From: Tubiluchus corallicola
Lineage: Eukaryota; Priapulida; Priapulimorpha; Priapulimorphida; Tubiluchidae
NCBI GenBank assembly: GCA_030141605.1
Contig: JAQGDQ010000041.1
Span: forward strand, 620,001-684,000
Length of the DNA stretch: 64,000 nucleotides
Direction: 5' to 3'
In this document: positions 15,786 to 62,300 of the stretch, piece by piece
Position numbering within the stretch: the first letter of the stretch is position 1
Layout: every line of letters starts with the position of its first letter
The notes under the pieces: generated by a model
Told to the model about the DNA's origin: nothing
Seen by the model: the letters and a program-made list of their open reading frames with translations, nothing else
The model's database searches: none
Program-made: the position numbers and the translations under genes

Positions 15786-16087
15786 GTTTGCATGTACCTA
15801 CCGAAAGTAAATAATGGTTTATGGGTTTAACAAAAATTTTTCGCATCTTTACACTGACGCAGCTTTTGGTGATAACAAGAAAAAACTGCTATATTTTCTT
15901 TGCATCAATTTTATTTATTGTTGTCAGCTGCCTTAAAAACAAGCAGCGCAGCCTATATGTTCGCTAAACTTTCACGTCTTTAGTGATAGGTCCTTTTCGC
16001 AAATGGCGGATGTTCGTTGTTAAGTCTCGTCTTTAATAGTTTCTGTAAGTGATTCAAAATATTAAGTTTTTATAAGTGGTTTTAAAG
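15786..16087. promoter_or_regulatory. divergent promoter interval between ZNF830 and SF3A3
   Basis: The two start codons are 302 bp apart and point away from each other, so both 5' untranslated regions and the core promoters must fit here unless an upstream noncoding exon exists. No TATA box stands out at a convincing position. AAATGGCGG at 16001-16009 matches the YY1-type motif (AAnATGGCGGC) often found just downstream of starts of housekeeping genes. Joint control of the two splicing genes is inference. Confidence 0.6.
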
Positions 16088-17593
16088 ATGGAAACATTAC
16101 TTGAGCAACAGCGAAGGCTTCATGAAGAAAGGGAACGCTTAGTGGATGCCATGGCCAAAGAAACTATGTTGAAAAAGTCTTCGAATCGCGAACAAATAAA
16201 TTCAGATCACAGGATGAGACAGCTTTTAGATAGACACATGGAGGATTCAGTCGCATTGTTAGAGTTATATGATGACAGGGATGGTTTAAGAAAAGAGGAA
16301 GTAGCTGCTTTGTCTGGACCAAATGAATTTGGTGAATTTTATGCACGTCTGAAGCAAATCAGAGAATTTCATAAGAGGCACCCCAACGAAATATCGATTC
16401 CTATGTCTGTGGAATTTGAAGAGCTGGCAAAGGCAAGAGAGAATCCTTCTGATCAAGAAGCAGCTATGGCCTATTTTTCTGACGAAGAAGGTTATGGAAA
16501 ATATTTAGATCTTCACGAGTGTTATGAAAAATATATAAATATGAAGGGATTTGAAAAAATTGATTATGTGACGTATTTAGGGATTTTTGATCACCTGTTT
16601 GATATACCAAAAGACAGAAAAAACTATGAATACAGAAAGTATATAGAAATGCTGCTAGATTATTTGCAAGGCTATTGTGCACGAGTAAAACCACTTTTGG
16701 ATCTTTCTGATGAAATGCAAGCAACCAGTGAAGAATTTGATAAGAAATGGGAAGCAGGTCAATTTCCTGGATGGCCAAAGGAAACGTCCGGAGCCTTGGC
16801 ACACACTGGAGCACATTTGGATTTGTCTGCATTTTCTTCTGCAGAGGAACTGGCTTCACTTGGTTTAGATCGACTTAAATCAGCATTGATGGCTCTTGGC
16901 TTGAAATGTGGTGGCACACTGGAAGAAAGAGCGCAACGCTTGTTTTACACAAAAGGAAAGAGACTGGATGAGTTAGACCCATCTGTGTTTGCGAGATCTA
17001 AACCTGGCAAAGCTGGAAAGAGTCGCGAAGCAGAGAAAAATAAAGAACTGGCTTTGCTTGAAGCACAAGTGTATAGACTTACTGAAATCTTAGGAGAACA
17101 GAGAGCAGCAACAAGAGAGAATGTACAACGTAAGCAAGCAAGAGCACAAGGTGAAGAAGAAGACGAAGAAGAAGCTTCCGCTTCAGAGTCAGAAGATGAA
17201 GAAGAGGAAGACATTCCATATAATCCAAAAAATCTGCCATTAGGGTGGGATGGTAAGCCTATACCATACTGGTTGTATAAACTTCATGGTCTAAATATTC
17301 CTTACAACTGTGAAATATGTGGCAATCATGTATATAAAGGACCAAAAGCTTATCAGCGTCACTTTGCTGAATGGAGACATGCACATGGCATGAGGTGTTT
17401 GGGTATACCAAATACTGCACATTTTGCCAATGTTACAAAAATAGAAGATGCCATTGCATTATGGGAGAAGATTCAGACTTCAAAAGCAGCCGAAAGGTGG
17501 AAGCCAGAGGTTGAGGAGGAATATGAGGATTCTCAAGGAAATGTTGTGAATAAGAAAACATTTGAAGATTTGAAAAGACAAGGACTTCTGTAA
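16088..17593 (+). CDS. SF3A3: splicing factor 3A subunit 3 (SAP61), single exon
   Basis: A 501-residue frame, the same length as human SF3A3, beginning [18 protein letters not shown] and ending [13 protein letters not shown]. It is the 60-kDa subunit of SF3a, which joins the 17S U2 snRNP and helps it bind the branch point in the nucleus. Visible parts: helical N-terminal region; a SAP-like motif near 257-290 ([19 protein letters not shown]); an acidic glutamate-rich stretch near 357-380; a matrin-type C2H2 finger near 405-436 ([11 protein letters not shown]...[11 protein letters not shown]). The ATG at 16088 matches the family start; the frame stays open four codons further up but without an ATG. 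No intron interrupts it, unlike most neighbours. A poly(A) signal follows 117 bp after the stop. Confidence 0.98.
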
Positions 17594-19974: not shown

Positions 19975-22900
19975 TCAGTCTCCAAACTGAAGATGTGGCA
20001 TTATATTATTACACTCGGAAGAAAATGCCGTGAACTCTTTACAGTATCTACTGTGTAATACCGACAGTTTGTCAATAATATACTCTTCTATTTCTTTATC
20101 TTTCTGCACATCTTCTCTGTCCAAATCAATGCAATCAACACCACCTTTGGTTATCAGAACAACATGTCTCTTTCTTGTCTCTAAAATATTTCCAATTACA
20201 ACCTAAATACAAAAAAATACTGTAAATGTAGACGTATAATTTAATATAAGTTTAAACGTAGCTCATTACTGTACAATTAACAAGACAGCTAGAATTTAAT
20301 ATCACACAACATGCGTGTGTGTGTGTGTGTGTGTGTGCATGCGTGCGTGCGTGTGTGCGCACGTGTGTGTAGATAGAAAACACATGCAATTACAATAAGA
20401 AACGAAACTCACTGCGTGTTTATATTTTTCCAAAGCTTGTTCAGACTTTGCCAACAACAGTTCTTTATTAGTTTCAAGCTGAAATAATAATACCCTAAGC
20501 ATTACCATACAGAACATACACATGTTTACAAATAACAAGTAATCACCATTGTTTTATGGTTGTAATGCATCCTAAAATTATACCCAGGATTTATGTGTGA
20601 ATTAATTATGCAGGCAGTGGTAGCAACAAAAATAACTATGAAGAAGGTCCATTGAAGCCGCTAATAATCACTAGCACTTGAGGTGCCTTGAATAACACTA
20701 GTACCAGGACGTAATGTTTTTTACTCGCATGATGCAGTCTTTGAACAAAGTTTCTCTTATTTATTGGGTCAATTCCAAAAAGAGGCCTAAGCGGTCCTGT
20801 CATTATTGTTAATGTCGTTGTCGACACCATAAAAAATTACAAGCGTCAACTCGCAAATGTGACAGGCTAGAGTCAAAACATGCAGGGTTGATATCTGGAT
20901 TAGAGGCTTTGACAATGACACTGTGAATGGTAACTTTGGTCAAAGGGTCAGCGACAAATGACATCAGTCAGTTTGAGTCATAACAATGAATAACTCCCAA
21001 ATTCCATAGAGTCACGAAACTAGGCGGGTTCAGAGTGAGCACTTGGGATAAGGGCTCAAACAATGGTATGGTTAAAAAGCTAGGATTGCTTAAGGGCTTG
21101 AGATAAGATCCAAAATGTGAACTCTGTCACAATGAGTAAACCGCACTGGACCAGGCATAGTCAAGTGATAAACATGTCATACTTCTCTTCCAAGCAAGAT
21201 GCCCACTGCCCAGATGGCATGTTATGTTTTGTGTCGCTCTCATCGTCATTGTTGTTGTGGACACAATCACACTTTACAGTTAAAACACCACAACTTTATT
21301 AAAACTTTTAATGTAATAAAGTTGTGGTGTTTTAACTATAAATGTTTCTATAGGTAATTTTACGTGCATGTAATAAAAAATTGACAATCACAATCTTCCC
21401 TTACCTTGAAAGATATACTGAATGCTTCAGGAGCCCACTCTTGAAAAAGTAAGCTAAGCATTTTTGGAACTGGTTGCAGAGTCATACTAAGTGGTCCATT
21501 TGCCGAGTCAATTTTATGCTCTGGCTGTAAAAACAATGATTAACAGTTAACTAAAAATGACAATGTGATGGCATATACAGGTCCAGAGAATCCAACATTT
21601 GAAACAGAAACCAAATGTAAAAAAGTAACTCGACAATCGTTCTGTAGTTACAGTATAAACACTGTTAAATGTGTTTAAAAAACATATTAAATGTCTGATA
21701 AAAAGTGTGAATAGACCAACAAGTTTTTCTTTCTTATTTTCTTGGAGGTTGCAAAAGTTTTGGAAAATAATTGTAGCTACCATCAATCTCCAAAATACAC
21801 ATTGAACACCAATAGTTATAACACACCACAATCAATTAGTGAGTCTGGTTTACATAAATACTATATAATAAACAAGACAGTTTGCATATTTAATACATGA
21901 AACCACTATACCACAATGGTCTTACTAACACAGCACAAGCAATTCTAAATTGCTTCTCACATATAAACACCGTAATAGGTATGGATAGGACTGATTACTG
22001 TCAGCCTTCAGCGTGATATCTTAATCCTGGCTAACACTTTTAACATTTCCACAAAATAAATTATTGGAAACTTAGGCTTTAAATAAAGAACTTCAAACTT
22101 CATTAGACGAAAATTGAGATGTCAATTAGCCTACACAATTTAGTTTTCAAACTGTATAATGAGTATTTATATAACAGTTATATGGTACATCAATTAGGAT
22201 TAAGATATAATAAAAACAACTCTTCAATACCATTTCATCAGCAGGTATGTAAAAGTCAGAAACAGCCGCTGCTAGATAAACAAGAGCTTCTCTACCCACA
22301 AACCGCAATGCCTCTGCTGCCACCTTCAGGTAAAATACATATTCAGTGAGGGTGAAAAACTCTATTTGCAGAAGAGATCCATTTGTATGATAGTGTTGAT
22401 ATGCTTCTAGAATGTCTTTTATACGAGGTACTTGATCATCTTTTACTGAAAAAAGAAGGCAAAACATTATTAATTTACTCTATAATAAAATTGTCTGATC
22501 AAATGCAAGGCAACTAAACTAACCTCTTTGGTTCTGTTCTTATGCAATTTATAGAACCATCACTTTAAAACCATTCGAAAAACAAACTAAACATATAGAT
22601 GATTAGATGTACAACGTCTTTTTGATGAAAATTTAAATGCAGCTGAATGTATTACAGGCAGAGCTGACCGCTTATTAATATAATTTTCTTTTTTGTTTGG
22701 CAGTTAAAACGCTTTAAGTTGTATGCACATTGTATCAAAGAAGCAGATAAGAAAAACAAAAAAAACTTTTTGCTAAAAAATTAAGTTGATGTAGGAGGTT
22801 GGACTTGATATGGGAAGTTGATTTGGACTTCAAAATACCATTTTCCTCTTAAGATTTGTTGAAATTAAATGTTTAAACATACCCATTAGCAACACTTTAA

Positions 22901-25900
22901 AAAAAATAAAATCAATTACAAACTGAATATAGTGAAAGCTGTGACATTCTCATATGACTTACTTGACCGCTACTTATACTGAGATACCGTGTGAAAAAGG
23001 TATTGCAGTTATCCAGAGGATATGGAGAATACTATGGTGTTGCATATTGTACACAAATGAACATGGCATTTTTGTCATCTGACTATTAAATATGCAGCAT
23101 GATTGTACCTTTAATGTTACAGTTTTCACTTTTCTCATCTTCGACTTGCAGAATACTTAAAAATTCGTGATTCGCAAACTGTCTGTAGAATGGTCTGAGG
23201 CTTTGCTTTCTGTATAGAAAAATCACACCATAGTCTTTTGTTAAAAAATATCTGAAAACCGTTAAGGACTTTTCATCTGACACATAAAATTGATATTTAG
23301 CTTATTAACACATATTATACTATACACTATATTATACACATTTATCATGTAAATTTTTTGCGCAGAAAATTCCACTTAGAAAACAAAAACGCCGAATCAC
23401 AAGTCTCATTACATTGAAACCATACCTTAATGTCAATTAACAGTACTTATTTTCTATTGTAAAATAATAATGTTGCAATATAGAAGAACGCATGTACACG
23501 ACACTGCTGGTAAGTATAACATTCTTTCCGGTATCTTTAGGAAAATTATAGATTGGAAAATATTTTTTTAAAATTTTGAGAGAAATTTTCTTGCATTTCT
23601 TTCCTTATTTTTGCTGTCTAGCTGGAGGTTTCATAGCAGTTTAAAGAAGGATAATATCACTAACGTGAAGGAAATGTAAAAACAACAAACTGAAAATGTC
23701 TAGTCACTACAAAGTATAAATGCAATGAAATGCCTTGCTTAAAATGCCAAAAAATGTAAATCATTCGTATCTCCCGTCAAACAAATCTTGCTGTGGGCAT
23801 ATTTAAAAAAAATGGCATAAGCTGGTGGACAGCATGAAGGCATGCTTACCAACTTAGCTTCAGCAGTTTACTCATAAATTTCACTATTCTAGCTGACAAA
23901 ATCTTTGTGTTTAACTGCGTTTATACAGAAATTAGTTATCACACCAATTAGCAACAACTTTTAATCCATCGAATTATGCCTCAAAAATGGATAAGTATTG
24001 TGATAATCAAATTAGATGGTTTGTTGACTTTCAGATAGGCAAGTAATTCTATGAGGCTAAGAACATAGAGTATGTGCTTGAAGGTTACTTAGTTTATAAT
24101 GTTCAGTATTAGTTTGTTAAAACAACTAGAGTATTCTGTTACTTTGTTGGTGTTAATTAGCCGAGTTGGAAGTTATCACAACATAGTCAGTAACTGTTTT
24201 TTATTATATAGTGAGCATCAAGATTAAAAAATTTTATCAAAAAGCAAAACAAAAATAGTATTAATAATCTCTTGTTTAATGCTTTGGATTGTTTATAGTT
24301 AATAGTAACTGCAGCTGCATAAAATTTAGCTCAAGCACCTGCACAATAATCAAATAATGTCATTTTTCGTTCAAAAAGAGTGCACCCAAGCACGAAATGA
24401 CTACAACTTTAAATTGATTTTGCTAATAGCATGAGGCGCTTGTACAATTTTATTGCTGAAACTTTCTAATATTTTTCTCAAATATTCATATAAGCTCAAC
24501 TTCCCAGGAGCCTTGCCTTTTCCTTTAATTACTGCAATATTTTCACAGAATGAAATAAAATGAGATAAATTGTATTTTTACAGGTTTATGGCACCACAAT
24601 AATTTTTGAGAGGATTTCTATACCAAAAGCAGTTAGAATGGTAAAACATTACACTTTCACTTAAGGAACTAGAAACGCACTAGGAACGCAAGCAATAATA
24701 AATAGCAAAGATATTTTCATCGTTTCTGAATTGTAAAGGATGCTCAGCAGATGCAGATCCTCGATTTCCCGAACTGAAGTTATCAATAAATCGCACAGTT
24801 CGACTTTCTAGTGGCACAGTGGTTCCACCTGACTAAAAAACAAAACTTAAATGTAATTTAATGTAAGTACATAGCTTACTGTCTTACTATGATTTTGAAA
24901 AAATATAGTTTTGTTGCAAGAACTTACAGGAATAACTTGTTTATAATGCTTCTTTTTTGGTCAATATGATATTACCAACGCTATTATGCAAACTGTATTA
25001 TGAGGACTTCAGTGCTGATGCCACTGCCTACCAAAATTAAACACTAATAAACAGCACAACAGGAGTTCAGGAGCCGGACTCCGGCTAGATTTTGTATTTT
25101 GGAATTTGCGAAAAATTCATCAGATTTCGATTACTTTTAAGAACAGGATTCTAGCACCTGGCATTGCGAGTCCAAGATTGTACAATGCATACAAATGTAC
25201 ATGCATCAAAATTTTAAAATTGAATAATGCTAAAAATGCATTCATGCCACAATAACCAAAATGTTAACTTCTCGCTTTTAACTTATTTGTAAAACAAGTG
25301 GTGATTTTGACATTAAAATTTAGTGGGGTGAATAGACCTATTGGAGATACATACAGAATTATATCCAAAACTTAGTAGTTTTCTCTAATAAAGTGCAGAA
25401 ACTAAACAAGTTTGCTATTAACCAACTTGTTAATTTATAAAGTAGAGTTATCTGAACTGATTTCACATAAACGTTTGTGAAAACATCTATTATAATCATT
25501 ATGAACTGTTCTTACTGTGACGTAGTGAGGCAGAACACAATTAAGGAGATTGGTCACCTAAAGAGTAAAACGATCTAAAAACACTCTTTTAAAAATAACA
25601 GAATTTTGAAAACCCTGTACTTCCTTCGTGTTGCATATTTCTTCAAATTGAAACTGTGTTTGCTGACTGTATTAGTGAATGTAGGACCTACACTGATTTG
25701 GAGCTGCATAGTTTGTTGTGTGGGTAAAACAAAATTAAAAGTACAGGCCATGAGCCAGAAGTACTGAACACTAGAACAACTGAGTTTATCAGAATGTCCC
25801 CCAAAGCCAACGAAAACGTCTAGGAAAGAAATCATTTGAACGCAGTATAGTATAGTGTAATATGACATCAATCAGTAATAGTTTGTGTTTATACAGACTG

Positions 25901-26074
25901 CACAATGTCTATAGCTGCAAAATTTACCGTCACTAAAGCTATTCGTCTGTTTTCTCTGACATTGCGCTGACAAAACGTGTTCAGTTTGTTGGCTATGTCA
26001 CCTAAATTATCTGGCTTATTTTCTGTTGTAAAGAATTTAGAAACACTATCAACATAATTTTGACAAAAAGCCAT
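19975..26074 (-). CDS. PPCS: phosphopantothenate--cysteine ligase, 7 exons
   Basis: Exons: 26074-25928, 24832-24744, 23251-23109, 22445-22231, 21524-21405, 20478-20413, 20202-19975. All phases agree and give 335 residues (human 311). The enzyme joins 4'-phosphopantothenate to cysteine with a nucleoside triphosphate, the second step of CoA synthesis, in the cytosol. Visible motifs: [13 protein letters not shown] at about 46-58, the DNFSSG loop at about 66-71, [18 protein letters not shown] near 183-192, PEHKI at the start of exon 5, [11 protein letters not shown] (ends 238), and the closing [18 protein letters not shown]. The start is the ATG at 26074; an in-frame extension upstream runs into retrotransposon-flanked DNA and is not family-like. 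Intron 2 (24743-23252) has U12-type signals with GC-AG ends (separate entry). Intron 5 contains a GT microsatellite and a 24-bp hairpin. Confidence 0.97.
20313..20370. repeat. GT/CA dinucleotide microsatellite
   Basis: An uninterrupted (GT)n of about 12 units on the + strand is followed by GCGT and GTGC variants. It lies in the last intron of PPCS, about 100 bp upstream of the final exon's acceptor in genomic order. Confidence 0.95.
21278..21337. repeat. perfect 24-bp hairpin with 12-base loop, in a PPCS intron
   Basis: Bases 21278-21301 are the exact reverse complement of 21314-21337, separated by 12 bases. The core arm contains ACACCACAACTTTATT. It lies between PPCS exons 5 and 6, about 70 bp from the exon 5 donor. 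A perfect 60-nt fold-back could be a hairpin RNA precursor or the remains of a tiny fold-back transposon. The lack of mismatches suggests recent origin or strong constraint. Confidence 0.85.
23252..24743 (-). other. U12-type (minor spliceosome) intron with GC-AG ends, PPCS intron 2
   Basis: Reading on the - strand, the exon ends TCTGCTGA and the intron starts GCATCCTTTAC, which is the U12 5' consensus RTATCCTTT except for C at intron position 2. Near the 3' end, TCCTTAAC (23268-23261) matches the U12 branch-point consensus exactly; its branch adenosine at 23262 is 10 nt from the final G of the acceptor TTTTCAG. Splicing there joins GA to A, restoring the glutamate of SAE and the family-like text [12 protein letters not shown]. 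No GT donor near 24744 gives that junction. Confidence 0.88.
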
Positions 26075-28621: not shown

Positions 28622-29550
28622 AGAAAAAGTCAGTGTTTGCAGACACTTTTCTCATGAATCCAATCTATATATCGTTCTTCAATGGCATTAACATACTTTT
28701 GGATGGCCTCTTTAAACTGATTAACTGTAACTGCTTTGATAGCCTTTTGAAGTAAACTATTCCACAAATCAATTATCCTATGGCTGAAAAAATATTTTCT
28801 TAAATCCAGCTTTGCTCTTTTCTTGTACATTTGTAACTGATGTCCTCGCATCGTCCTCTCATGACTCTTGAAAGTGAAGAAGTTTCCAACATCCACATCA
28901 TCAACTCCTTTGACGATTTTAAAAGCTTGTATTAGATCAGCGCGTGTCCTTCTAGTTAATAGTGCATGCAGACCTAGACTCTTAAGTTGCCGACAATATG
29001 GACCATTCTTCAACCCTTCAACCATTTTTGTAGCCCTTCTTTGGACACCCTCGATTAAACATATGTCTTTAATAAATTACGTATTCCTTTATTGGAGATG
29101 TGCTTTCCAGCTTTTACATCATATGGCATTATGACACCTAAGTCAGTTTCTTCCTGGGCTACATTTAATGAAGTGTTATTAACCATATGATCTTGGTGTG
29201 GATTTGAAAACCCCATATGCATTAACTAACTTTTGCTTTCATTGAATAACATTTCCCATTCTTGTGACCAATTAAAAAGCACTTGTAACGAGTTTCTTAG
29301 CGACAGAATTTCATCATATGTACGTAGTGCCTACTCTACTGCGCATTTTGCAGTCATCTGCAAATTTAGACAATTTTATTCCAACGCCTTCATCAATATC
29401 ATTTACATAAACTAGAAACAACAGGGGTCCCAGAACTGATCCTTGAGGTACCCCAGAAGAAACACGCACATACTTTGAAAAACTGTCTCCAACCACAGTT
29501 CTTTGGGTTCTTATGCACAACCAATTTTCTAAACAATGACATCACACTGT
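28622..29550 (-). pseudogene. CR1/jockey-like LINE fragment, reverse transcriptase and C-terminus
   Basis: Two - strand pieces lie in the order expected for one element. The upstream piece (about 29520-29314) has SSGVPQGSVLGPLLFLVYVNDI and FADDCK, the palm motifs of a non-LTR reverse transcriptase. The downstream piece (29025-28630) reads RRTRADLIQAFKIVKG...RGHQLQMYKKRAKLDLRKYFFSHRIIDLWNSLL...FKEAI, the typical C-terminal tail of this class. The part between, about 29040-29310, is degraded. It is a decayed insertion and not a host gene. If HIBCH begins upstream near 27.8 kb, it sits antisense in HIBCH intron 1. Confidence 0.85.
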
Positions 29551-39425: not shown

Positions 39426-42400
39426 TCATGATTACCGACAGTTCGTCTGAGCATATGAGTTGCAACAATTTTGTTGGGCCACCAGTGGTGTCACTAGTAT
39501 TTATGTAATGTTACAAACTTTAAGCATCATAAAAATATTCAAATGCCTGTGGTCTGTTTAGTTGAATGCTACACCAACATAATGGCTCATTTAGAGTAAC
39601 GTGTGTACACCAGAATTTCGGTATGTATTGTATTGTTCACCAATCAAGTAACTATCAAGATGTCATCAATCTTAATTGGCCAGTCTAGGTAAGCAAGTAT
39701 TATTGTGTGTACTGTGCAATTCATATGGAGACTCCAGGACTATTAAGGCCACAAATGCATTCTTGTCTATTTTGGCTTCAGTCTTGGATTTTAAATGTTA
39801 GTGCAATTTGTATAGTCAAAATTAAACTAGTGTTTTTACTGCCATAGTCATTTTACAACCTGGTTTTGTGTACTAAAATTTGGTTTTGTAAAGATTGTGG
39901 CACAGTAATATTTCTTGTTGGTATATACCTGTAAAACTTTTTTATTTCATTGCTATTTTGGTTGTATTGTAACTTTTTTAAATTGTTGGTTGACTTGGGT
40001 AGAGAGAACTACATTTGAAAATCAGTTTGAAATTATTCATTAAAGGGAACGACATGTTACTTAGCATGTTAAGTTTATTTTTTATTTCCATTCTATTAAA
40101 TGTGTCATTTGCAGAATATTTTTTAAACAGTTTTGAAATGTTCTGATATTTTAATTTTTTTTCAATTCTAGTTTTTTCTACTAGAATTATGTCAAATGGC
40201 GCGAAATCTATACATGATTAGGATGCATATACATCAATAAATATTTTTGTTAGACAAAATTCTCGATTTATAATCATGATATTTCAGGACATTTCATGTG
40301 TGCTAAGCATAGTGAGTACATTGGAATTGGGTACAATTAGTACTGTTGTGATAGCTTTATTTTCCAGAAAACTGTTTATTATTTTGCAACGCAAAGGAGA
40401 TTTTGATGAGAGTGTGAAGAGTTTACAGGGATAATTACTAGAAAAAATATCAGTTATCGTGATACTCTCTAGTTTCCTTAGCCACGAGATGGGAGCCTGT
40501 TAATGTGACAAGTTGCTCTAATTATATACTTATTTGAATTATTAAAAAGTTCATGTACGTGATAAGCAAAGATTTCTTTTCCTAGACTTTGTTAGCTGCT
40601 AGTTGTAGGCAGGTTTGTTGATCATGCTGACATATTTTTGAGTTTGTCATATCAACTGTGTAATATCAATTGTTGTTTTACATGACCCTCTAGTCTGTTT
40701 CTGTAGATTTTGTACATAGATATAAAACACATTAATACTTAATTAGTTATTGCTTAACCGTTTACTTTAGAGTAGAGGATGAACATAAATAAAATAAGAT
40801 AAATTCTTTTTGGTGGAATATATAAACAACATAAACTTGTGCTGAGGTACATTGTAATTTAGTCAACAATTATATATCATAATCTGCAACTGACTGGCTA
40901 TGCCTGTAGAAACTGCATACTCATAAAAGTACAGGATTATTAGTGATTCTATATTCATTTGCCTGCATTTCCTTCAGTCTTTCAATTGCCACAGTTTCCG
41001 TAAACCAACATTTTAGTAAAATTCACTTAAACTTTTTTATATTATACTTTTTAGCATTATGAATTTTTAAATTTATTATATAAACACTGACATTTTCATT
41101 TATTAAAGCTTGATGATGAGTCATAATTGTGAACAACATTATAACCGAACTGTTTTAATGCAACTTCTTGATGCTTGTGAATAAAATTTTCTATAGAAAT
41201 GCAAGTACCATTGAAGTACTTCATGGACATTCCAAATGACTTTTTTTCATAATTGATGTAAAGTGGCATTTCTTTGTAGCTAAAAAAAAGTAGAGTGTGA
41301 ATCGCTTCTGTTTTTACTGAATCATTGTTGCTACAAAAAATTTGAATGAAACAAGCGTAATGGTTGCGTTAAATTATACAAAATAACTATTTCACATATT
41401 TCCAATAAATTACATTAATACATGTACATGCGCCGTAAGTTTCGAACTGACTATTTGTACAGAAGCATTCAGCCTAATAGTCCTATTAGCTGCAAAAAAG
41501 AAATGAAAAGCTAATATCCAAAGTGACATGAGAATAATACGAGTGTGAGAAATACGGAAGTGTAATGCAAAATTAACTAATTTATATCCCCACGAAAGTG
41601 CTAATAAAGGATTACAAAATGAACCTGCATTTCAGCAAATCAAAATAAAAGTTTAAGAAAACACAACTCATAAGCAAATAATAAAGGCATGTTGTTTACC
41701 TGTTTGTCAGGGGTGTATTAAGACAGGGATGCCATTTTGCATGATGCTCATTATAGTATTGGGGAGACAAAAATTATTGTATAATTGTGGCCCAAACCCA
41801 AAACTATCATGTACTGCAGCAGAAAATGAGCAGATTATTGTATAATCATGTGTTAGCAAAAAGTAACTATGTCTCTATAAAGTGGCATTAACAGGTGTAA
41901 AATTAAATTTATTAAAACACAGTGAAATATCACCATTTTCTGCATCAGCGGAATCAAGCCTAATTTTCGTTATCATGAGCATTCTTTGTTGAAATTCCTG
42001 CTTCTTTTTCAAGGAACTGCGATCAGTATGATTTAGCTAAAATGACATTAAATATTATTTCGGTGCACAAGCACAATTTTTTACAGTTTGTTTTTTAATT
42101 TCACATTACTAATTTATCATAAATTATCAATTATCGTATAGCTCTTTTTTGTACGGTATTAAGTCTCAAATTATCGTATGATCCAATAATTATCAGTAAA
42201 TGGCAACTTATGTGAATATGAAAGGATACACATTTTCCGAGGTGAAAAATAATTTTTTTTACACTGGATCCCTAAAAATCTAGGGCCTTCAACCTATTTA
42301 ACCTAGTTAACCTATTTGTAAATAATGTTTTGTGAGATTATGGCAAGTTACCAGTGCAGTACTATAACCACAGTTATCTTTGTTATGAGCATATCACAGA

Positions 42401-49258: not shown

Positions 49259-52200
49259 ATGGAATCAGGAAAATATGCACGTGCCTTATATGATTTTGAC
49301 ACCAACCAACCCAACGAGCTTCCACTAAGAGCCGGAGATGTAGTCAGGCTTATGAAGCAAATTGACAAAAATTGGTGGATTGGTGATCTTAATGGAAAAA
49401 CAGGGAATTTTCCAGCTTCTTTTGTATTGCCACTACCTCTTCCTGTTTTGTCAAACAATGAACTAGTATGTGTTGGCATGGAAACATTTCGAGGAGAACA
49501 AACAGGTGACCTAGACTTTAATAAAGGTGATATTATCATTGTGACGGAACAAGTTGACCGTAGCTGGTATAAAGGCAGATGTGCCGATCGTGTTGGAATT
49601 TTTCCTGTTAACTTTGTAAGGTTTTTAAACGCTACAAGTCATGATAATGTAAAGGAAGCTGTTATTATGAAAGCCAAAGCACTAATGGATCTTGTGCCAC
49701 AACTAGATGAAGAATTACCATTTCGTGCAGGTGATATGATTGACATACTTGAAGTTAAGGAAGATGGTTGGTACATGGGGCAGTGCCATGGTGTTACAGG
49801 CATGTTTCCACCTACATTTGTGGAAGTTGTCGATAGCAATGTGCCAAAAACTCAACAAAAACAGTGCATTGGCTCCAATGTGAATAAGTCCAGACTTGAA
49901 AGATGTTTAGAGGTAGCTATGGAAAAAGTCAGTAGCATTGATACCACTGATGATGCTGCACAAATTCCCTCTGCTCAGTGCAGCCAAGAACCTGGACTTA
50001 GTTGCATTTCAGAAAGCCAACAGTCTCCCTATTCTCCAGGTGATATTTCACAATTCCGAAATTTTCACAACAAAAGAGATATCTTTCCAGCCAATGATAG
50101 GATTTTGGATGTACAAAGTAGTTCATCAAAGAGAAATTTAGTTGATGATGGTGTGATACCTAAAGCTGAGTTAGAGCGTTATGGAAGTACTGGACTAACG
50201 CCTTACGGCAGGGCATTGTTTACATTTGTTCCTGTTAACGAAGACGAGCTGGGTTTTGCAGAAGGTGAAATTGTAAATCTTATTCGACATGTCAATGGTG
50301 ACTGGATAGAAGGTATAATAGATGGCAGAGTTGGTATATTCCCAAAAGACTTTGTGGAAGTAATAATTGACTGTCCAAAAGATTACGAAGAAGTAGAAAA
50401 AGAAGATGCAAGTATTGTTTCAAATAATTTGTCACCTAGTGAGCCTAAGCTTTTTCCTCAAAATTCATATGCAAAAGTACTATATGATTTTAAAGGTGAA
50501 GTGGAAGGTGATTTGTCAGTGAATTGTGGAGATATTGTTCTTTTGGTGTGGCAGCTTGATGCAAATTGGGTAGAAGCAAAAGATTGTATTGGCAGAACAG
50601 GAATATGTCCAGCAGCCTTCCTAGAGCATATCGATGAAAAAAGTAATGAAAAGAGTGAAAATTTGGAAACAGGTATTATGGTTATCGATAATTATACTAA
50701 GCAAACATTTGATGAACAAAAAATGCCAGATCCTACGGCAAAAGCAAAAACTATCACTTTCAATAAGAGGAGCAGTTTACCACTGAAGTTTGATTTTTCC
50801 AGAAAAAGTTCGTCTGATATTGACTCACTTGTAGCAAAGAATATTCAGTCTTGGGAACTAGACACAAAAGACAATTTATCTCGTAGCATGACAATTGATA
50901 GCTCTAATGTGTCACCAAGAAGCAAACAAACTAATTTAGTTAGAAATGCTTCTATTGACAGTTCATGCAAAGAATCTAGTGTGCATTATGATTCAGAAAA
51001 ATCAGTGCAAGAGCCAGTTGAACAAGAAAAGTACAAAGAAGTACAAATGCTAGATGACCAAGCTAGGATAGCAAAAGCATTTCATTTATCCAATGTGCCT
51101 TTGAAACCTGAAAAAATTGCACCTAAAAGACCGAGCCCTCCAGCAAAACGGCTTGCAAAAGCACCTGCTAGGCCACCTAGACCTCAAACTTTGCCTTATA
51201 AAAGATTTGGTGCACAACAACAACCTTTGTCACCACATAGTGCAAGAAAGAATCTCTCATCATCTAAATTTTACGTAGAATTTTCTTCCAGTATGGATTC
51301 TATGCCTTCAACTATTTCAGAATCAGCAGCTAAGAGGACAAAACCTACAAGTAATTCAACTTCACAGGTATGTTATACTCCTGCATCTCAGACACCACAT
51401 GTGGCACCTTCTGTAATTCAGTCACGTGGTGCTAAGAAGCCAACAGTAATAAGAGCTGTTGCTAGAACAGATGCTAATCCGAGTTTGGTTATGCAACAAA
51501 ATATAACTGTGCCTTCAGTTAACGTTGCCGTACAACACCAGCAATCTGTAACTGCATCTTTTTCCACTAATAAAGGACAACAAGAGCAAGATATAGAGCC
51601 AAAGGAGCAACAAAGTAAATTAGGCAGTGAATATGAAAGCAGTAATGCATTTTCTGCAGCTCCAGTGTTTGAAAAATCTTTATCTGAAGTTTCTGAACAC
51701 GATGCCAGGGATAAAGAGATTATTGAAGAGGTTCTGCCAATTCTTCCAGTTTGCGGCTCATCCCGACGTGCCCTTTCATCTCCAGATGCAAATCTAACTT
51801 CCACAGTAAGAGAACCTCCACCATATCATGCTCCTCCTCCTTATAGAGGATCTATAAAGAAAGAAACTGTTGACCGTATTAGTTTAACACCTAGTCCAGA
51901 GTGCATTTCAGATTCTACTAGTGATTCAGATAGTTGCTTACCTATACGTAAAGCTCCACCTGTACCAAAGCAGCGGACTTCGATGCAGGTACTTATTCAG
52001 GAAGATACAGGTAAAGAACTTGTGCCGGTTAGAGCTGCACCTCTGCCACCTCAAGCTGCTCAAAGAAAAAAGTTGCATCGAAGATCTGTAAAGCAAGATG
52101 AAGAAGAAAAGCAAAAAAATTTGGACAAAATTGATGCTGAGAAAAAAGAACAAGAGGAAAAAGAGAAACTGATTTTGGAAGGCAAACAAAAAATGAGGGA

Positions 52201-54427
52201 GCATCGTGACATGGTGATAGATGAACTTGTGAAGACTGAGCAAGAATATGTACATGATCTTCATCTTTGTTACCAAACATTTTTGCAATATCCAAAAGAT
52301 GTAAAACAAAAATTGGAAATTGATGTAGAAACATTATTCGGAAACTTAGAAGAAGTGATGGTTGTAGCAGGGCAATTGTTGTCTCTGTTGGAAATGGCAC
52401 AAAAGACTAATCTAGACAAACAACCAATCGGAAAATGTTTTTTGGATTTAGCTGACGACATGAAGTCTGCCTATGGGACATACTGTACAAACCACGACAG
52501 TGCCATCGAACTTTTAGAAAAATACGCAAACGATGATGAAATAACAGAATTTTTCAATGTGAAAGTAGAACGTATCAGAGAACAGGGATGCAACTGTTTT
52601 GATCTTGGTTCAATTCTGATTAAGCCTGTGCAAAGGATATTGAAGTATCCACTTTTACTCAATGAATTATTTAAAAGTACTGAAGATGGGCATCCAGATA
52701 AGGAGCGAATCACACTGGCCATAAATGCAATGACAGACGTTGCATCTACAATTAATGAGTTTAAACGTCGGAAAGATTTGGTATTTAAATACAGACGGGA
52801 CACAGATACTATCACAGACAAAGTACAAAAAATAAACATTCATTCTTTGAGAAAGAAATCTGCCCGTTTGTCAACCAGGTTATCGAATGTCTTTAGCACC
52901 AGCTTCAGAACTGTCGATGAAACGTTTAAAGAAGAAGAATCTAGGTTTGTAGGTCTGGAGAAAGCCTTACACCAACTGATTAAAGACGTTTCTGCATTCA
53001 ATGCATGCTTGAATGAAATGCTAGTCGATCAACTTACTGTAGCTGAAGATGTCACAGATTACTATGGTATACAGTATCTCACAACAGATACTATAGAATT
53101 TAAAAAATATCACCGCATTGTTAGTTCACAGCTATTACAGGAGTACAAAAATTCTGTAGAAGCTAAAGTATTAGATCCTTTGAATAGTCTGGCTGTGCTT
53201 TGTCAAGCTGGCCCAGCTAAATTAATAAACAAGAGAACTGACAAGTTACTTGATTATGATAATCATCGAATCACTGTGGATAAACTTGAACGAATAAAGG
53301 ATGTAGAAAAGCTTCAGCAAGCAAAAGTTGATATGGAGACAGCAGAGAGGGTTTACAAAGCACTAAATGCTCAACTATTAGAAGAACTGCCAAAGTTGTA
53401 TCACATGGCAACTACAGTCATAAATAACTGTATTGGAATGTATGTGCATATTCGAAAGGAATTTGTAGAAAAATGCGTGTCTGAACTTGTTACATTAATA
53501 CATTTACCATTAGTGCAGCAAATGGGAGGGAATGAAAACTACATTCAAACATTTTTAGCGAGAAACCAGTCAATTGATGATGAACTTTCCTCTTTGGAAA
53601 GCTTGTCCAAAACAAGTGATTTGCAAAAACGTGATCAGTCATCACCATCAAGCGGTAGCAGAAAGGGTAGAAAAACCTTGCCTCATGAAGCTAAAGCCTG
53701 GGGTTCTACAGACAGAATTTGTACTCAAAGTGATGCAGAACGTCAGTATGTACAATCTCACTACAAAGCAGAAGATCTTTATAGGGTTATAAAAGATTAC
53801 AGGTCTTACGAAACAATGGATCTTCCAGTTCTGGAAGGCCAGCTTCTAGGAGTTATAATGCGAAAAGATCCAATGGGATATGAGGAAAAATGGTTTGTAG
53901 ATAGCGGCAGTGCAAAAGGATTTGTGTTAAAGTCCATCTTAGCTCCATTAGCTGCATCTGGCATTCAGGCTCCGCCCTCCTACTCAGCTGTTGTGAGCAG
54001 CGATGCTGCTCAGTACCCTGAAATGAGGTATGTTGGTAGTCACCTTTATCCCAAACTTTCTTCCAAAACAGAAACTTCTAAACCAGAAGCTTTAGAACCT
54101 GCATCTGCCGAGCAGCAAAAGCCAACAGGTTACCCCACATCAGGACAATCTTTAGCTGCAGATGGTGAGTCTACATCTGATGAATCAAGTAGTCGCAATC
54201 AAAGTTACAGTTCACTACCAGAACAGGAAAGATTCTTTTGCTATGCACTGTATCCATTTGAACCATTAGGTGAAAATCAGTTAAAAATTTTCGAGAGACA
54301 GGTCTTACAAGTTCTTCAAAGACATGATGAAGATGAAAATAATGAATGGTGGCTAGTACGAAGCGAGGATGGAGATGAAGGATATGTACCTGCAAATTAT
54401 GTACAAGAGTATGTTCCGAGTGATTAA
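49259..54427 (+). CDS. DNMBP: dynamin-binding protein (Tuba), single coding exon
   Basis: A 1722-residue frame without introns. Domains by residue: SH3 at about 5-58, 70-126, 138-195, 315-372 and 403-460 (each with ALYDF/ALMDL-like start, a W, and a GxFP-x-x-F end); proline-rich segments near 623-650 and 850-905 (APPVPKQR); charged helix 948-985; DH (RhoGEF) about 983-1180 with VKTEQEYVHDL, LGSILIKPVQRILKYPLLL and INEFKRRKDLV; BAR about 1215-1435 with LNAQLLEELPKLY; SH3 at about 1503-1565 and 1658-1720. Human Tuba has four N-terminal SH3, DH, BAR and two SH3; this has five in front, seven in all. Tuba activates Cdc42 and ties dynamin to actin regulators at membranes and junctions. An acceptor-like site at 49209 suggests a noncoding first exon. 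The lack of introns over 5.2 kb is unusual beside split neighbours. Confidence 0.96.
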   Translation: MESGKYARALYDFDTNQPNELPLRAGDVVRLMKQIDKNWWIGDLNGKTGNFPASFVLPLPLPVLSNNELVCVGMETFRGEQTGDLDFNKGDIIIVTEQVDRSWYKGRCADRVGIFPVNFVRFLNATSHDNVKEAVIMKAKALMDLVPQLDEELPFRAGDMIDILEVKEDGWYMGQCHGVTGMFPPTFVEVVDSNVPKTQQKQCIGSNVNKSRLERCLEVAMEKVSSIDTTDDAAQIPSAQCSQEPGLSCISESQQSPYSPGDISQFRNFHNKRDIFPANDRILDVQSSSSKRNLVDDGVIPKAELERYGSTGLTPYGRALFTFVPVNEDELGFAEGEIVNLIRHVNGDWIEGIIDGRVGIFPKDFVEVIIDCPKDYEEVEKEDASIVSNNLSPSEPKLFPQNSYAKVLYDFKGEVEGDLSVNCGDIVLLVWQLDANWVEAKDCIGRTGICPAAFLEHIDEKSNEKSENLETGIMVIDNYTKQTFDEQKMPDPTAKAKTITFNKRSSLPLKFDFSRKSSSDIDSLVAKNIQSWELDTKDNLSRSMTIDSSNVSPRSKQTNLVRNASIDSSCKESSVHYDSEKSVQEPVEQEKYKEVQMLDDQARIAKAFHLSNVPLKPEKIAPKRPSPPAKRLAKAPARPPRPQTLPYKRFGAQQQPLSPHSARKNLSSSKFYVEFSSSMDSMPSTISESAAKRTKPTSNSTSQVCYTPASQTPHVAPSVIQSRGAKKPTVIRAVARTDANPSLVMQQNITVPSVNVAVQHQQSVTASFSTNKGQQEQDIEPKEQQSKLGSEYESSNAFSAAPVFEKSLSEVSEHDARDKEIIEEVLPILPVCGSSRRALSSPDANLTSTVREPPPYHAPPPYRGSIKKETVDRISLTPSPECISDSTSDSDSCLPIRKAPPVPKQRTSMQVLIQEDTGKELVPVRAAPLPPQAAQRKKLHRRSVKQDEEEKQKNLDKIDAEKKEQEEKEKLILEGKQKMREHRDMVIDELVKTEQEYVHDLHLCYQTFLQYPKDVKQKLEIDVETLFGNLEEVMVVAGQLLSLLEMAQKTNLDKQPIGKCFLDLADDMKSAYGTYCTNHDSAIELLEKYANDDEITEFFNVKVERIREQGCNCFDLGSILIKPVQRILKYPLLLNELFKSTEDGHPDKERITLAINAMTDVASTINEFKRRKDLVFKYRRDTDTITDKVQKINIHSLRKKSARLSTRLSNVFSTSFRTVDETFKEEESRFVGLEKALHQLIKDVSAFNACLNEMLVDQLTVAEDVTDYYGIQYLTTDTIEFKKYHRIVSSQLLQEYKNSVEAKVLDPLNSLAVLCQAGPAKLINKRTDKLLDYDNHRITVDKLERIKDVEKLQQAKVDMETAERVYKALNAQLLEELPKLYHMATTVINNCIGMYVHIRKEFVEKCVSELVTLIHLPLVQQMGGNENYIQTFLARNQSIDDELSSLESLSKTSDLQKRDQSSPSSGSRKGRKTLPHEAKAWGSTDRICTQSDAERQYVQSHYKAEDLYRVIKDYRSYETMDLPVLEGQLLGVIMRKDPMGYEEKWFVDSGSAKGFVLKSILAPLAASGIQAPPSYSAVVSSDAAQYPEMRYVGSHLYPKLSSKTETSKPEALEPASAEQQKPTGYPTSGQSLAADGESTSDESSSRNQSYSSLPEQERFFCYALYPFEPLGENQLKIFERQVLQVLQRHDEDENNEWWLVRSEDGDEGYVPANYVQEYVPSD

Positions 54428-59300: not shown

Positions 59301-62300
59301 CATGTACACAAGAAGGATTTTTTTTGTACTACTTTTATACAGAAAAGTATCATATTTCAGTAGCTATTTAAAAATTTGATATATCTCTGCTGATCACCTT
59401 TGCTATTTTATTAATTTCTTTAATTGTGGTTCTGTTCTATACAAGAAAATGTTGAAGTCTGCAACAGACGTGACAAAATATTGCTTTTGATAAATATGCT
59501 ATTGTGGTGTGGTTTAAATTTTAAGCACTTTGTTGCTTTGTTTTTGTTATAGGAAAGTTCAAGGCTTTACTACCTTTTTGACAAACTTATTACACAAGTT
59601 TTCAAATGATTACATTATACGATAGCTGTGTGCAGAATGCTTCATCCTTTACGAACATCATTAGTAATTAACAAAAACTGCGTAGCTTCAAAGTCTTCGT
59701 ATTTTACTCAATTCTTTAGATGTAATTCAAATTTGGACAGCTACACATAGTTTAAAAATCTAATTCTACAGTCAAGAAAACGTACCTAGAGAGATCCCAA
59801 ATTTTGGCTGTATTATCCATAGAACAGCTAGCAATAAAGTTACCCGAATAATGCCAACTGCAGTCCCATACTAAAACAGAACAAAACTTTATAAGACAAA
59901 AGAGGTAATAATAATGAATATTGATAATGAACAATAATAGTGAATGTTCCAGCCGTGTTTGGGACAACTGTAACATCATGCAATCAAAACATTCAACTTG
60001 ATGCAGCAAGAATAACCAGTGCATCCTTGGTGCCAGTTATCACCATTTGTAGAATGAGCTGGGTTTGCTTCCATTATGCAATAGACATATGATATGCGAT
60101 ATAAACCTATACAACTATATAAAACGTCTAATGGTCTTCTTCCTTCATATTTAGAAAATCTGTTACCACCCACAGTAGAAACAATCACAGGGAACCATAC
60201 ACTTTGCAATAGTGATCAATATTAGAATGAATATGAGGCATGGAACTACTCTTTGTCGTAGCTCTTTTATAAGCGCATCAACCTTAGCCTGGAACAATTT
60301 GACCTATGATCTCAGAAATGCCCTCTCTCTCATTCAACTTAAACAGGAACTAGACAACTTAGATGGGTTTAAAGTTAGTAAACCATCACATCAATTTGCT
60401 GCTGATGCTAGGTTTGGGCAGGTTCATATGGGTTGATGTAATGCAGTTTACTGAAAGCACACACGTGTGCTCTAATTTTATTCTCCCTTCTCTGCATTCC
60501 TATGAAGATTCCAAACAGTTTCTTCTACACTGCTCATTTTACCGAAAAAATCCATACCCAGTATATTTCTCCTTTAAATGCACTTACTCAAAATAATATT
60601 CAATTACTATGTGGGGATACCTCACTTTCATCCTGATTCTAATAATGCTCTAGTATCTCTCATCATTAAATTGATTAAACAAAGTGGGTACTTCAATCAA
60701 TAATATTAAATTTACGTCATGAAATTTGCTGAATTTTACTTTACAGAGCAAATTATTTATACTTTTTTGTTCCCGTGACACCACAACTGATTTCTTGTTC
60801 CTTTCATTGGTCTCACCTTCATTCATTTTTTTCTTGCCTAACTTTGCTGCAACTGAACTATTTTCATAATACACTCTCGACCTGCTTAGTCTGGTTTTCT
60901 AACAGGGTCTCAAACACTTTACTAGGCTGTATACAACATAATTAACACTTCATTTTTATGTGTAATTTGATAAACTCTGTTGTGATGTAAAGCATACACT
61001 AGTACTAATTTATTAAATAATGGACATGAAGGATCAAAGTGAAAGGTGTAAAATATTGATGGCAAAATATCATATTTTGCTTGAATATCAGAATATTGTT
61101 ATGTAAAAATGCTTGAATACTGCTTCGCAAAGTCAATAATCCGTACTGAAACTACAAACAAAAATTTTGTATTTTCTATCTTGTTATCATGACATAATTT
61201 TTTGTGAGCTACGGTAATATATCACAAATGCAACTAACCTGGCTGTGAATGTTCTGTAAATGTCAGAACACAATCTTCTTCCACAAAATCCCAAATTCTC
61301 ACAGTGGTGTCACCACTGGCAGTGACTAGCTTACTGCCCCTAAAAATAATAAAATAAAATTAAGATATATGTTTAACCAAAACTAGTGGTGACTAGTAGA
61401 TACTTATGCTAACTGCTTTCCTATTAAAATATGTGAGATATTGCTATAGTGTGTTCAGTGAGTTGGAAATTCTACCATTGCTTGGGGCAACCTTATTTCA
61501 GGTGTTCAGGTAAGGGATGAGTGACATTCCTTGCGGATAACAGGTTATTTTGCACACGATAATTGTAGACTATATCCAAAATCAGCAAATACTCCCCATA
61601 ACTCAGTCAGACTGCCTTACAATAATGTAACTTTTGAAGTTTTAGAAAAAAAAACAGCATATGTTTTAAAGTATACATATTTTCAAACACTACAAAGAAT
61701 TGAGTTATAGAATAGTGAAAGCCTACGCGAATCTTATTTCTTAGTTAGCAAACAGGGTCTCAAAACGTAAGTCTGTGTCAGTGTAATATCAATACTGTTA
61801 CAAATCCTATAATGGTTTCTACACACACTCCTTGTTTGCATAGTAATGGGTAAATGACAATTAGGCACAAAAACATAACTGACATTAAAAACTGAGTGTT
61901 AAAAGAACCAGTAAAGCAGGGTTAATAGAAACTATGGAAATAACAACCATAAAAAGGCAACTGCTAAATGGTTGAAAGTAAAAGTAAAGATTTCAAACTT
62001 ACTGAGGATTAAAATCCACTCCAGCTATCCAATCAGTATGACCTTGTCCAGACATGATCAATTTGGCTGTTGAAAGTGACCACAATCTCCACTGCTTATC
62101 GTCACTCACACTAGCTAATATTTCTTGAGCTGGATGTAGTACTAATCTACAATTGAAAAAATATCATTCATTCACAATGTTAACTCACTTTGTCATTAGA
62201 AACAAGCTAAGTATCTAGGCATACTTATGCCTTTACTCTGTTAAACAATTTTAAACAACCTTTTTGTTTATGCATACAATTTACCAACATTCAACTTTAA

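Follow-up and report, generated by a model that had tools for sequence, protein, structure and literature searches.

The window, by which we mean the whole stretch of 64,000 nucleotides of Tubiluchus corallicola that was analysed (C1986:620001-684000 in an assembly of 343.5 Mb and 2344 contigs), carries on its minus strand seven exons, between 26074 and 19975, that join into an intact frame of 335 amino acids. The product of this frame matches human phosphopantothenoylcysteine synthetase (PPCS, 1p9o) at an E-value of 2e-79, covering residues 28-313 with one single-residue gap that lies away from the junction of exons 2 and 3, and it contains a Pfam DFP domain (E 4.6e-15). Inspection of the locus showed no mark of a pseudogene. 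Exon 1 (25928..26074, 147 nt) starts with ATG, the match with 1p9o beginning at residue 28, and is followed by intron 1 (24833..25927, phase 0, GT-AG, U2-like), exon 2 (24744..24832, 89 nt, ending in TCT GCT GA), intron 2 (23252..24743, phase 2, 1492 nt, assigned to the U12 type below) and exon 3 (23109..23251, 143 nt), which begins with A TAT TTT and so completes the Glu codon before continuing with Tyr-Phe. The remaining coding sequence is found in exons 4 (22231..22445), 5 (21405..21524), 6 (20413..20478) and 7 (19975..20202, stop codon included). Five of the six introns have GT-AG termini and intron 2 alone has GC-AG. The coordinates that an earlier note on this DNA had given for the latter intron, 23252..24743, were exact, with exon 2 ending at 24744 and exon 3 starting at 23251 on the minus strand. 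In intron 5 we also observed an inverted repeat (21273-21342; arms of 29 nt that are 97% complementary, with a gap of 12 nt), possibly a small transposon or a hairpin.

Other genes and frames in the window included an SF3A3-like splicing factor gene on the plus strand (16085-17593; Pfam SF3a60_Prp9_C at E 4.3e-56, and also the SF3A3 and SF3a60 binding domains), which encodes 502 amino acids in one uninterrupted frame whereas the neighbouring PPCS gene has six introns. An uninterrupted frame of 1722 amino acids (49259-54427, plus strand) encodes six SH3_1 stretches, one RhoGEF and one BAR domain, and judging from this order of domains we take it to be DNMBP/Tuba-like. On the minus strand, two exon-like frames at 44074-42777 presumably represent, by their look, exons of a transmembrane ubiquitin-like (TMUB-like) protein; Pfam ubiquitin was matched in the second of them only (E 2.4e-5; the score of 24.5 bits falls slightly short of the 25.4 cut-off). 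The same strand holds a frame of 148 amino acids (28630-29076) that had no Pfam match at E 0.001 and that in our judgement looks like the last part of a LINE-type reverse transcriptase, and an exon-like WD40 stretch (59752-60036; Pfam WD40, E 5.3e-8).

The junction between exons 2 and 3 could be fixed by protein homology, independently of the dinucleotides found there. Across it the product aligns with human 1p9o without a gap, 12 of 18 residues being identical (human letters TSAEAFLAAGYGVLFLYR). We enumerated all junctions with a donor from 45 nt inside exon 2 through 199 nt past its end and an acceptor from 200 nt before through 59 nt after the start of exon 3. A total of 3818 of these keep the frame without a stop (7 GT-AG, 17 GC-AG, 19 AT-AC, 39 AT-AG and 2 GT-AC, the rest having other dinucleotides). 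If all dinucleotides are counted, 99 of these junctions leave the length of the protein unchanged. Just two of the 3818, both among the 99, yield the model protein, namely 24743/23252 (GC-AG) and the same junction shifted by 1 nt (CA-GA). GC-AG was the only pair of recognised terminal dinucleotides among the enumerated junctions that gave a gap-free PPCS protein, and the GC start and AG end of intron 2 sit where the protein places the junction.

With 7 GT-AG and 19 AT-AC junctions in frame and open among those enumerated, another donor or acceptor might be used, in which case the protein would carry a lineage-specific insertion, deletion or replacement. We consider this scarcely credible. The seven GT-AG junctions change the length of the protein by -16 to +35 residues, and none leaves it unchanged. 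Three AT-AC junctions bring no net change in length, but these replace residues in or beside the conserved SAE-FL stretch, and their donors do not start with ATATCC. All GT-AG, AT-AC, AT-AG, GT-AC and other GC-AG junctions near intron 2 were rejected because conserved residues would be lost, added or exchanged in the protein. The earlier note had claimed that no GT donor restores the conserved SAE-xF junction and that the GC-AG site does so while keeping the phase, and both statements agree with the enumeration and with the intact frame of 335 amino acids, gap-free here against human PPCS.

The signals of intron 2 are arranged as GCATCCTTT...TCCTTAAC-GGTTTTCAG. We scored them by plain counts of matches to the U12 consensus, without a position weight matrix. 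The donor GCATCCTTT (24735..24743, minus strand) has 7 of 8 matches over positions +2 to +9, the sole departure from the consensus (RTATCCTTT, as given in a passage of PMC2846911) being at +2, and the branch site TCCTTAAC (23261..23268, minus strand) has 8 of 8; the AG of the 3' splice site lies at 23252..23253 on the same strand. For the other five PPCS introns the corresponding counts were 2-5 of 8 for the donor and 4-6 of 8 for the branch site. Of the two adenosines in the branch motif, the first lies 11 nt and the second 10 nt from the last base of the intron. Either may serve as the branch point according to a passage of PMC3584512, which gives 11-13 nt as the optimum distance, so that the second is slightly short of it. 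The description in the earlier note, a donor equal to the U12 consensus except at position 2 and a perfect branch motif placed 10 nt before the AG, was confirmed.

The stretch from -20 to -4 contains 10 pyrimidines out of 17 in intron 2 against 10-15 in the other five introns, and intron 5, with GT-AG termini, has the same 10 of 17, so that the two classes cannot be told apart by this count. Intron 2 is in phase 2 and is preceded by an A at exon position -1, a combination that PMC7367187 describes as disfavoured for GT-AG U12 introns; this counts mildly against the assignment of intron 2 to the U12 type.

In absolute number, far more U2 introns than U12 introns have GC-AG termini, as can be deduced from the published percentages and the rarity of U12 introns, and intron 2 might accordingly be a U2-type GC-AG intron removed by the major spliceosome. 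Its donor matches GTAAGT at only 2 of 6 positions and the exon ends in GA. This mismatch is a weak argument by itself, because two other introns of the gene, both called U2, match at only 3 of 6. What speaks against the major spliceosome is that the donor goes on as ATCCTTT and that an exact U12 branch site lies near the usual U12 distance, and on the strength of these motifs the U2 assignment was rejected as very improbable.

Neither the donor motif nor the branch motif is unusual on its own. ATCCTTT occurs 17 times in the window against 12.4 expected and TCCTTAAC twice against 2.1 expected, and genome-wide we counted 1093+1077 = 2170 occurrences of GCATCCTTT against 622+716 = 1338 of the backwards pattern. 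The motifs of intron 2 carry weight because protein homology fixes the junction at which both of them sit. Of the 4700 GC site-strands in the window (2350 on each strand), just one reads on as GCATCCTTT, and only one of the 3730 YAG sites has TCCTTAAC at 8-21 nt upstream (10 of 3730 with the looser NCCTTRAY at the same distance); in both cases this is intron 2. Multiplying the base-composition probabilities of the two signals at a single fixed junction gives about 3e-8. As a control, all [AG][TC]ATCCTT sites on both strands (n=11) were paired with an NCCTTRAY branch-acceptor 60-6000 nt downstream, which was successful for one of the 11, again intron 2. The other ten, including those at 42229 and 49083 that were also examined in context, were rejected as U12 donors since they have no compatible branch-acceptor inside 6 kb.

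We also found genes for two snRNAs of the minor spliceosome in the assembly. U11 gave one match (C1937:634118-634247, corresponding to L010 1501-1630, minus strand) that spans positions 1-134 of 134 with 101.7 bits against a cut-off of 39, and U12 gave one match (C246:124599-124748) that spans positions 1-151 of 151 with 105.9 bits against a cut-off of 53, whereas neither family had a match in 14 control genomes. These genes, one each and both above the cut-off, are in line with the earlier note, which had taken the intron to imply an active minor spliceosome in the organism. Such a spliceosome is supported in part, by the genes for two (U11 and U12) of its four specific snRNAs. The 5' end of the predicted U11 snRNA reads AAAAAGGGCUU, and its start, AAAAAGGG, could pair with CCTTT at +5 to +9 of intron 2 and with +4 through a G-U pair, leaving +1 to +3 unpaired. 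The first three bases of the intron are indeed described in a passage of PMC3584512 as not paired by U11 and as being read by U11-48K.

The C at +2 is the one base by which the donor departs from the consensus. The usual per-base error rate of assemblies is about 1e-4 or less. An ordinary GT-AG U12 intron, in which this C is a consensus error of the assembly or a minor allele carried by the haplotype that was assembled, would have the donor GTATCCTTT, an exact match to the U12 consensus. It would also avoid GC-AG termini, which are rare among U12 introns (0 in Ciona and zebrafish; PMC7367187 Table 2), and the base at +2 rests on a single assembled copy. Against this, the assembly holds no second haplotype with a T: a search of the 343.5 Mb with 301 bases around the donor, for a second copy or an alternative haplotype, found one place, which was identical. 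Moreover, in those animals of Table 2 of PMC7367187 that have any GC-AG U12 introns these make up 0.2-5.3% of all U12 introns, although the table may include annotation artefacts. Since this share exceeds the usual per-base error rate, we consider an error or a minor allele at +2 unlikely.

U12 introns with GC-AG termini have been described in earlier publications, and intron 2 of PPCS adds one more to this known, rare subtype. That this form is rare, as the earlier note had maintained, is apparent from Table 2 of PMC7367187, where it accounts for 0-5.3% of U12 introns (e.g. 0.61% in human, 5.3% in Drosophila, 4.2% in Anopheles and 0 in Ciona). A natural GC-AG U12-type intron in an animal, comparable to that in PPCS, is described in sections of PMC2831892 for another gene, SF3A1 (CG16941) of Drosophila, where it is the only GC-AG one among 19 U12-type introns in the fly; natural GG-AG, GA-AG and CT-AC cases are mentioned there as well. 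Those sections are inconsistent with regard to the mammalian counterpart, as the table lists the intron as absent from human SF3A1 and one sentence has the GC-AG intron as GT-AG in mammals. In the human LZTR1 gene, a passage of PMC8280824 describes a minor-class intron that shares its GC-AG termini with PPCS intron 2, and whose GC-AG site was outcompeted by minor GT-AG sites in a P120 reporter. That case concerns a different gene and comes with experimental data, while the intron in PPCS is predicted from the sequence. An intron with GC-AG termini in a lipid transfer protein gene of Acanthamoeba castellanii was likewise classed as U12-type (in a part of PMC2846911), in this case in a protist and in yet another gene, the prediction being made from ESTs and the genome. 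GC-AG is grouped with the canonical termini in a passage of PMC10639083, and the excerpts of PMC3033335 and PMC5762160 contain nothing specific to GC-AG U12 introns. Among the open-licence papers searched we found none that names PPCS as a minor-intron gene, and the main text of PMC6717393 does not mention PPCS.

The presence in PPCS of a GC-AG intron with U12 signals is confirmed at the level of the sequence. We conclude that intron 2 is very probably a U12-type intron with GC-AG termini that the minor spliceosome removes; splicing at this site, tolerance of the C at +2, the ancestry of the donor and the efficiency of the reaction are what we infer from these signals. In the simplest and most likely history, the donor would have been an ordinary GTATCCTTT that underwent a single change of T to C at +2. 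The U11/U12 di-snRNP would bind donor and branch site together, with U11 snRNA pairing to +4 to +9 of the donor and U12 snRNA to the branch site TCCTTAAC. The C at +2 would then fall outside the U11 duplex and within the part that is read by U11-48K, so that the remaining signals, being nearly perfect, would compensate for it, probably at a lower efficiency. Non-canonical termini are reported in a passage of PMC3584512 to support U12 splicing, often with lower efficiency. A more far-reaching proposal would be that the GC donor is fixed in the lineage, that slow splicing of the intron sets the level of PPCS and with it the output of coenzyme A, and that the minor spliceosome of this organism is unusually tolerant of a C at +2; to this we give little credence.

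Among natural U12 donors with a C at +2, intron 2 of PPCS provides a further candidate that is well anchored. It could help to find out how much latitude U11-48K and the minor spliceosome allow at this position and, since the other signals of the intron are almost perfect, the effect of the C at +2 alone could be measured here.
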